Shown: positions 45,116 to 46,750 of the stretch, one piece after another
How the letters are laid out: each line of letters starts with the position of its first letter
How positions within the stretch are numbered: the first letter of the stretch is position 1
Source of the DNA: Ilex aquifolium
Lineage: Eukaryota; Streptophyta; Magnoliopsida; Aquifoliales; Aquifoliaceae
Assembly (NCBI GenBank): GCA_951799425.1
Contig: OX637391.1
Location: forward strand, 24,476,551 to 24,540,550
Direction of reading: 5' to 3'
Length of the DNA: 64,000 nucleotides
Notes under the pieces: model-generated
The model's database searches: none
What the model saw: only the letters and a program-made list of their open reading frames with translations
Told to the model about the DNA's origin: nothing
Position numbers and translations under genes: made by a program

Positions 45116-45649
45116 GTTCGAACGCCAGGTAACGTTCGAACGTTGAAAGCTTACAGTACTCAGCCTCTGATGAAGCTTCTGCAGAAACTTGAAAGTACTG
45201 GGAGCTCAGTCCGTTCGAACGCCAATAGACCGTTCGAACTAGATTAACGTTCGAACGCCAATAGACCGTTCGAACGAAGAGTATTTACAGTACTTTGGCC
45301 TCTGACAGAAACTCAAAAGTACTGGGAGCTCATCATGTTCGAACGCCAGACCACGTTCGAACGATCTTTTTAAAATTCCTTCTACCAACGTTCGAACGTC
45401 ACCAACGTTCAAACGTTACAACTCAGGCTATAAAAGCCTGGTTCGTCGTTTTCAGCCAAAATCCCCAATTTTTTCCAAAACCCTAGATCTCATTCTCACC
45501 CCACAGACCTCAACTTGCCCTCATTCCCCAAGAATATCCAAATTCGACCTTTCCTAACTCCTCCCCACATCAAAATCATCAATCCCAGACCTTGAACCCT
45601 AAGTTCCAGAACTTTTCAGGACCCTCCCAAATCAAACTCACGTTCGAAC
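45116..45649 (+). promoter_or_regulatory. Internal promoter-like region of E with GTTCGAAC operators
   Basis: GTTCGAAC at 45116, 45134, 45213, 45232, 45249, 45268, 45337, 45355 and 45390, with a GTTCAAAC variant at 45407. Pairs are 18-19 bp apart with GCCA-containing spacers, as in the LTR. TATAAAAG follows at 45429-45436. A tenth perfect copy at 45642-45649 ends three bases before the ATG at 45653. The layout (palindromes, TATA, leader, gene) copies that of the LTR and suggests a separate, perhaps self-regulated, transcript for the large post-pol gene. Confidence 0.7.
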
Positions 45650-45652
45650 GCC

Positions 45653-46750
45653 ATGCCAAGGATGAAACTTCCTGCCAGGCGTGCTCCACCAGTGAATCAA
45701 GACCCAAACATGGTAGAAGAAGTGATTGAAGAAAGGGGAGGAAGGCAAAGGACCAAGACGTATGACAGAACCAGATTTCCTAATGCCTTGAAGGCTGAGA
45801 GGTATGAAAATTTTTACCGTAAGCATGCTATTGTCTGTGAGAGGGATGTTGTGATTGATGATTTTGCTGAGATTGGTATAATGCAAGAAATGGAGAGGAG
45901 GGAGTGGGTATGGTATTTGAGAAATGGTGGAGACGCAGTTGTTGAATTGGTGCAGGAGTTTTACTCCAACGCTGAGATCATCAACGGCGCAATACGGACA
46001 TATGTTAGGGGTACCCACATTGACATGGACGAAGCATACATTGGGGAAATAAGGGAAGAAATACCCCGGGTGCAAAACCCTACCTACCCACCAAAGAAGA
46101 ATGTAGCAATGACTGTGGTAGGAAAGGAGTTGACAGGGATAGCTGACTTTTCATGGGTAGGGAGGAAATTTTTTAAGCAAGGGGAGCTCACCGACAAGTA
46201 TAAGATGTTGAATTTGATTGCGGTGTCCAACTTCGCTCCCTTAGGAAGAAAGAATGAGATTCTACCTGATATGGCCCGACTTCTGTATGCCATTGGCAAG
46301 GGACATAGCATTGACCTACCCTCTCTCATCTTGAGTGAAATGAAGAAGGGATGTGATGTAAAAAGGAATGCACTCCCTTTTGTGACTTTGGTGACTGAAA
46401 TGTGCACGGAGCATGGGGTAAGGGTAAAGCCTGAGATGGAAATCCAGAAGCCAATGGGGCCATTGAACAAGGCTTCATTCCGGAGAAGCCAAAGTCATAG
46501 TGGCGTCCCGGCGGCAAGGCAAGAAGAGCCCCCGGCCCAAGGAGTAGATGAAGTGCAAGAGGAGCTTGATGAGATGGAGAGAGAGATGGGAGGAGAAGGA
46601 GATCAGCCAGCAGGTGAGGGACCTAGCACCAGCACCAGCACCCGACGCTCATTATGGGACGTCATGCTTAGCATTGAAGCTAAGCAGGATGAGATCCTTA
46701 GGCTTTTGAGGGGTGGACATGGAGGAGATGGTGCACAAGGAGGAGAGTGA
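45653..46750 (+). CDS. Large post-pol protein of element E (putative plant transposon protein type)
   Basis: An intact 365-codon frame. The first third is basic (MPRMKLPARRAPP) with ERYENFYRKHAIVCERDVV; then FYSNAEIINGAIRTYVRGTHI, GKELTGIADFSWVG, GELTDKYKMLNLIAV, ARLLYAIGKGHSIDLPSLI and LPFVTLVTEMCTEHGV. The C-terminal part is acidic, then has a Ser/Thr run and a short helical end (SIEAKQDEILRLLRGG). Its counterparts in A and D are broken. The pattern recalls Pfam Transposase_32, whose biochemical role is unknown; no DDE triad or known DNA-binding motif is obvious. The start is chosen at the ATG just after the last palindrome. Confidence 0.83.
   Translation: MPRMKLPARRAPPVNQDPNMVEEVIEERGGRQRTKTYDRTRFPNALKAERYENFYRKHAIVCERDVVIDDFAEIGIMQEMERREWVWYLRNGGDAVVELVQEFYSNAEIINGAIRTYVRGTHIDMDEAYIGEIREEIPRVQNPTYPPKKNVAMTVVGKELTGIADFSWVGRKFFKQGELTDKYKMLNLIAVSNFAPLGRKNEILPDMARLLYAIGKGHSIDLPSLILSEMKKGCDVKRNALPFVTLVTEMCTEHGVRVKPEMEIQKPMGPLNKASFRRSQSHSGVPAARQEEPPAQGVDEVQEELDEMEREMGGEGDQPAGEGPSTSTSTRRSLWDVMLSIEAKQDEILRLLRGGHGGDGAQGGE

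Follow-up and report, generated by a model that had tools for sequence, protein, structure and literature searches.

Palindromic motifs repeated in the LTRs of Sireviruses, upstream of the TATA box, were described by Bousios et al. in 2010 (PMC2829016). In Sireviruses that contain env, the motif recurs ahead of that gene (77 of 79 linker copies) and the boxes form CpG islands, while the boxes of the env-less members are found in the LTR only. The authors favoured an internal promoter but could not pin it down.

The current analysis concerns a stretch of 64,000 nt from Ilex aquifolium (the window) that consists of nested plant LTR retrotransposons, one of which, element E, has palindromic boxes in its LTRs and again ahead of a post-pol ORF. 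Like the Sirevirus RM boxes, those of E are palindromic, element-specific and CpG-rich, and many lie in the LTR before a TATA box and before the env or post-pol gene. However, Sireviruses are Ty1/copia elements, whereas E has the Ty3 order with RNase H before integrase, and the Sirevirus core is CGG-CCG (in all but Tnd-1), whereas that of E is TTCGAA and that of a second element, F, is TTCCGGAA. Paired boxes, a box at the ATG and a PF20167 ORF also distinguish E from Sireviruses. Element F has boxes in the LTR and before the ORF, as Sireviruses do, but no TATAAA after the LTR boxes. The preliminary description of this DNA knew of no such system in Athila elements. None was found for Athila among the open-access papers searched, but the layout itself has been published for Sireviruses (PMC2829016), so that it is not new in kind; in Ty3 elements of the Athila type it is a new variant. 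A text search of the literature with GTTCGAAC, the palindrome of E, gave nothing that looks related among the matches listed, as judged on titles and the starts of abstracts.

Three other systems offer partial parallels. In foamy viruses (PMC7390438), the LTR and an internal promoter that serves the 3' gene both respond to Tas, and E would be alike, with two promoters and one factor, if the model proposed below holds. Foamy viruses, however, are animal viruses with Tas sites that are little related between the two promoters, whereas the boxes of E are identical and its transactivator is hypothetical. VANDAL elements are plant DNA transposons. The motifs recognized by their VANC proteins (PMC5735166, PMC10398659) resemble the boxes in being short, family-specific, clustered in noncoding regions and fast-changing between relatives, but VANC has other protein domains, the motif is YAGTATTAY, and anti-silencing is a feature of VANC. 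The gene23 of maize Grande is likewise an accessory gene located after pol and has its own promoter, as the ORF of E would, but it is antisense to gag-pol and no shared LTR boxes are mentioned in the accessible text (PMC7264820).

Palindromic boxes of element E

Element E (34372-59824) is bounded on both sides by the 5-bp TSD CATAT, and its two LTRs have 26 differences over 1955 aligned positions (Table 1). RT/RNase H lie ahead of integrase (Pfam, 41726-43054), which is the Ty3 order. Stops and a solo LTR (39904-41753) disrupt the gag-pol frame, as does an apparent inversion within integrase, whose C-terminal part (approximate bounds 43055-44241) seems to point the other way from its counterparts in elements A and F. 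A PBS, TGGCGCCGTTG..., directly follows the 5' LTR at 36334 and is taken here to be of the tRNA-Asp type; TGGCGCC occurs additionally at 976, 25726 and 50897 in the window. In one report, tRNA-Asp is named for Calypso and Diaspora (PMC1142308). Three Athila-type traits were thus found in E: the Ty3 pol order, the PBS and a post-pol PF20167 ORF.

Table 1. Positions of the main features of elements E, F and N and of a solo LTR in the window
Feature	Position	Strand	Remarks
5' LTR of F	24009..25721	+	bounds from TG/CA ends and PBS at 25726; gag-pol after PBS
F LTR boxes	24257-24464	+	seven CCTTCCGGAAGG-type, three perfect
Solo LTR, E family	28815..30632	-	TSD GAGAC; about 82-85% identical to the LTR of E
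5' LTR of E	34372..36327	+	TG...CA ends; self-BLAST against 3' LTR pieces; TSD; PBS motif
LTR array of E	34558..34918	+	eight perfect GTTCGAAC; variant GTTCTAAC at 34893; spacing of 18 bp in four pairs, single at 34806
LTR TATA box (CTATAAA)	35011..35017	+	TATAAA at 35012
Internal array before post-pol ORF	45116..45414	+	nine perfect GTTCGAAC; variant GTTCAAAC at 45407; spacing of 17-19 bp in five pairs
TATA box of proposed internal promoter (CTATAAAA)	45428..45435	+	TATAAA at 45429; putative promoter function
Proposed 5' leader	45460..45652	+	38% C, 7% G, ATG-free; AAACCCTAGAT at 45478; putative leader function
Single box near ATG	45642..45649	+	tenth perfect GTTCGAAC, then GCC and ATG 45653 (GTTCGAACGCC-ATG)
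Intact post-pol ORF of E	45653..46750	+	365 aa; PF20167 Transposase_32, E-value 3.6e-24, above curated cut-off
3' LTR of E, first piece	48578..48837	+	two perfect boxes at 48764 and 48782
Non-autonomous element N	49043-55877		LTRs 98% alike; nested within insertion in 3' LTR of E
3' LTR of E, second piece	58124..59824	+	boxes 58172-58414; nested insertion splits the pieces
F pre-ORF array	62567..62705	+	four boxes of the CCTTCCGGAAGG type, each with 1-2 mismatches; TTCCGGAA retained in one
F post-pol PF20167-like gene, broken	62995..64000	+	tblastn with P0003, 6.6e-6; leaves the window
TACCGGTA positions	49506-49569, 54502-54553, 40363-40417, 33370-33454; also 293, 8382-8421, 13812-13851, 57499-57623		

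The word GTTCGAAC has 31 matches in the 64 kb, compared with an expectation of 0.57 (mean of 100 dinucleotide-preserving shuffles, the largest value being 4), and a chance origin of the set is excluded. When palindromic 8-mers made up of three or more different letters were ranked by their densest cluster per 500 bp, GTTCGAAC and TTCCGGAA each reached nine copies, TACCGGTA four and CTTATAAG three, while ten Markov shuffles gave two or fewer. The inventory in the preliminary description was correct: nine perfect internal copies with a variant, a TATA box at 45429, a tenth copy three nucleotides before ATG 45653, and eight perfect LTR copies followed by a TATA box at 35012 are all present. The perfect internal copies start at 45116, 45134, 45213, 45232, 45249, 45268, 45337, 45355 and 45390, and the internal region of E (36328-48577) has no GTTCGAAC besides this pre-ORF stretch. 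A stray copy at 56615 lies within the insertion nested in the 3' LTR. All boxes of the 5' LTR are upstream of the LTR TATA box. The ninth box, a variant there, is perfect in the 3' LTR (58389), yet the 3' LTR has GTTCAAAC at 58355. Wherever one LTR has a variant, the other has the perfect word, so all nine boxes of the LTR were probably intact at the time of insertion of E.

Most of the boxes are paired. When the 5' LTR and the pre-ORF stretch are taken together, variants included, 18 of the 20 boxes form nine pairs with start-to-start distances of 17-19, the singles being those at 34806 and 45642. The spacing is non-random in the LTR (p about 0.001, 20,000 trials) and in the internal array (0 of 5,000 trials), although the internal spacings are not fully independent because the array contains a partial duplication (45113-45239 versus 45246-45362, 72%). 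The GCCA spacers, which had been described as common to both arrays, follow the first box in most pairs but not in all: two of four in the 5' LTR, three of four in the 3' LTR and four of five in the internal array. The single box near the ATG carries GTTCGAACGCCA, the final A of which is the A of the ATG.

Once the boxes are set aside, the LTR array and the internal array of E have no similarity above that of shuffled sequences (133 of 300 reach the score), so the box word itself is what the two arrays share, and the idea that the internal array is a wholesale duplicate of the LTR array was rejected. Heat-shock elements, which follow the rule GAAnnTTC, were likewise rejected as the source of the boxes, since this pattern occurs only where GAAC precedes a box (GAACGTTC, found in the 5' LTR at positions 34554 and 34889).

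The self-complementary boxes could instead act at the level of RNA, by folding it for packaging or dimerisation or into silencing-triggering dsRNA. The predicted fold of the array is far more stable than that of shuffled sequences (z -8.1, with none of 100 shuffles equal). Such folding, however, is expected of any set of identical palindromes, and because the LTR boxes are upstream of the TATA box, the genomic RNA would not contain them at its 5' end, which also counts against an RNA role. We consider this explanation very improbable.

The region between the internal array and the post-pol ORF

The arrays of E are CpG-rich relative to most of the element. The observed/expected CpG ratio was 1.18 in the LTR array and 1.69 in the internal array (45100-45420), but only 0.29 for gag-pol, 0.36 for the LTR outside the array and 0.39 for the ORF. 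The ratio is also fairly high between pol and the array (0.75) and in the proposed leader (0.85), which counts against the promoter reading. The proposed leader has a higher C content than all 9116 tiles of 192 nt in the window, and 0.6% of the tiles are equally G-poor. No ATG occurs in it until 45653. The missing ATG is a weak sign: 5.5% of the plus-strand tiles and 59% of the sequences simulated from the composition of the leader are likewise ATG-free, and 15 of 1338 gaps between ATGs are at least equally long. With both strands of the window counted, the 11-mer AAACCCTAGAT, an extended telo-box-like word, is found at just two positions: 45478, in the leader of E, and 62919, in that of F. 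This word aside, the two leaders show no significant overall resemblance (33 of 300 shuffles).

Taken together, the boxes, the TATA box and the ATG-free, C-rich leader of E are judged, with moderate confidence and from sequence features, likely to constitute a second, internal promoter under the control of the DNA-binding factor of the LTR, for which the Sireviruses offer a precedent. One trans-acting factor would read both arrays, probably as a dimer on each palindrome, so that every 18-bp pair would hold two adjacent dimers, and transcription would start near 45460. The internal array would then serve as a promoter-proximal enhancer that repeats the regulatory word of the LTR, the LTR and the ORF would respond jointly, and the ORF could be made without genomic RNA or splicing. 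The binder may be either a host transcription factor or a factor encoded by the element. The box at the ATG, which of E and F only E possesses, would sit where the leader ends and, if bound, might dampen or adjust expression.

An alternative route to the ORF is a spliced transcript from the LTR, with the C-rich stretch as the acceptor tract and the array as a transcription-neutral copy of the enhancer or a by-product of repeat growth. According to one review, the general view is that the LTR drives transcription of plant env-like genes, and splicing is reported in Bagy2 (PMC7264820), which counts against an internal promoter; acceptors have been predicted for Athila (PMC2829016). A candidate acceptor, TTCTCACCCCACAG at 45493-45506, was recognized by eye, and the 72% duplication within the internal array would suit repeat growth. 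This explanation, however, does not account for the match to the LTR boxes, for the TATA box that follows, or for the same layout in F with a palindrome of its own, and it is considered unlikely.

The same layout in element F and the boxes of other elements

Element E is inserted inside element F, which is interrupted at 34371 and resumes at 59825. Over the span of F that was scanned (24009-34371 and 59825-64000, nested LTRs included), CCTTCCGGAAGG words with two or fewer mismatches are confined to two clusters, seven in the LTR and four before the ORF, and none of 400 simulated post-pol regions had four such boxes in 150 bp. The pre-ORF boxes are decayed and lie about 290-430 nt ahead of ATG 62995. 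The gene that follows begins with ATGCCACGTATGA, which resembles the start of the ORF of E, ATGCCAAGGATGA; a piece of it (63235-63639) matches PF20167 with an E-value of 0.0044, below the curated cut-off, and no other Pfam family. By eye, its start (62995-63234) includes a hydrophobic, membrane-like stretch, which E does not have. A reverse-oriented CCTTCCGGAAGG-type array at 14446-14837, many of its boxes about 31 bp apart, is probably a piece of an F-family LTR in another insertion.

Two features of F count against the promoter reading. There is no TATAAA between the pre-ORF array and the ATG, and an ATG at 62726 lies between the array and the start of the gene. In favour of it, TATAAA follows both arrays of E and neither array of F, so that the type of core promoter also goes with the family. 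The CpG ratios of the F arrays are now 0.41 and 0.22. Outside the boxes, the LTR and pre-ORF arrays of F retain a modest similarity (6 of 300 shuffles reach the score), so a duplication of the array is possible in F. Nor is there a box at ATG 62995. The box at the ATG is therefore not a general feature, and the earlier proposal that it could be an autoregulatory operator is weakened, the box itself being present in E. The broader proposal, a second promoter-like module read by the factor of the LTR, fared better: with the layout repeated in F, and the TATA box and ATG-free, C-rich leader in E, it is the best reading. Because the word differs between the families and matches within each, one trans-acting factor per family would act at both sites.

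The E-family solo LTR gives a view of how the boxes are retained. At the nine box positions of E, it has four perfect boxes, two degraded boxes and three that are missing. The bases kept were 54 of 59 in the boxes, 186 of 230 in the flanks of the array and 1283 of 1500 elsewhere (one-sided p 0.11), and the CpGs kept were 13 of 16 in the boxes versus 12 of 21 (p 0.11), so the better retention of the boxes than of the flanks is only a trend and is not significant. For the pre-ORF region of the E family, one copy with an internal region was examined, and the viral and prokaryote contig collections scanned had no further copies of E.

Element A counts against the proposal: it contains a PF20167 gene, which is broken, at about 21883-22975, but the stretch 20800-22020 shows no repeated palindrome; the U3 of its 5' LTR is outside the window. 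In element N, TACCGGTA boxes occur in the two LTRs but not between them, and there is no match to PF20167. With boxes in the LTR only, it matches the pattern of the env-less Sireviruses, although the numbers here are small. The window has 22 copies of TACCGGTA, clustered in the LTRs of N and of related solo LTRs; some lie in other, unclassified insertions. A small zinc-knuckle ORF is present in N at 51021-51482, and a portion of the region between its LTRs shows 83% similarity to the post-pol region of F.

Candidate readers of the boxes

Two narrower forms of the internal promoter reading differ in the origin of the factor. In the first, a host protein reads both arrays, a LIN54-type CXC protein in E, with possible cell-cycle expression, and another protein in F. 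Every perfect box of E contains TTCGAA, which fits the CHR consensus TTYRAA, and the recognizing tyrosines and most of the backbone-contacting residues are conserved in Arabidopsis TSO1 and soybean CPP1 (PMC4974476). However, the E boxes also conserve an outer G and C that TTYRAA does not require, and the words TTCCGGAA of F and TACCGGTA of N do not fit this consensus, so that a CXC factor alone cannot explain the families. A host factor is put forward tentatively, as a real possibility that falls short of an expectation.

In the second form, the PF20167 product or another protein of the element binds the palindrome and thereby activates the LTR and its own promoter or relieves their silencing, much as foamy-virus Tas or VANDAL VANC do. 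Several observations agree with such autoregulation, 1) E and F have different palindromes, but each family uses its own at both sites, 2) element N, with its TACCGGTA boxes in the LTRs, has neither a PF20167 match nor an internal box, 3) a PF20167 protein of sunflower Athila was predicted to be nuclear with a score of 0.80 (PMC11728184), and 4) VANC binds clustered short motifs in noncoding DNA of transposable elements (PMC5735166). A family-specific word at two distant places is what would be expected from a co-evolving, element-encoded reader, but different host factors would look identical.

Several results on the product of the ORF count against this second form. The Pfam scan found PF20167 only, with no recognized DNA-binding domain; DUF1985 and DUF287, which characterize VANC, were not matched. 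The sole sequence match in the PDB had an E-value of 0.15 and was disregarded, and AlphaFold models made with 5 and 15 rows had mean pLDDT values of 37.5 and 45.8 and were unusable. Moreover, four env-less Sireviruses still retain boxes in their LTRs (PMC2829016). Autoregulation by an element-encoded protein is rated as rather doubtful. No transmembrane segment was detected in the E product, the best 19-residue Kyte-Doolittle mean being 1.0; since E lacks a membrane-like stretch and the sunflower relative is predicted to be nuclear, a nuclear role fits better than an envelope role. Protein searches returned 13 PF20167 relatives, all of them without DNA context, of which 11 (P0001 and P0004-P0013) are 68-78% identical to the E product over 29-46% of its length, while P0002 and P0003 are nearer to element A than to E.

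By analogy, a wider circuit can be envisaged, in which Athila-type elements would be organized as foamy viruses are. The PF20167 protein would read the palindrome of its family and activate or de-silence the LTR and its own promoter, palindrome and reader would change together in each family, and the operator at the start codon of E would close a feedback loop. This scheme is speculative and, as a whole, distinctly unlikely.

Because a second family shows its own word, the finding is more than a curiosity of one element. It bears on the function and expression of the extra genes of Athila-type elements, for which a review assumes transcription from the LTR, with splicing in certain elements (PMC7264820). 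If the boxes match within families and differ between them, the palindrome-binding protein of each family becomes directly testable. Should the PF20167 protein prove to bind, the 'env-like' gene would become a transcription factor or an anti-silencing factor; if it does not bind, the boxes would still be a simple sequence code for the timing of element expression.
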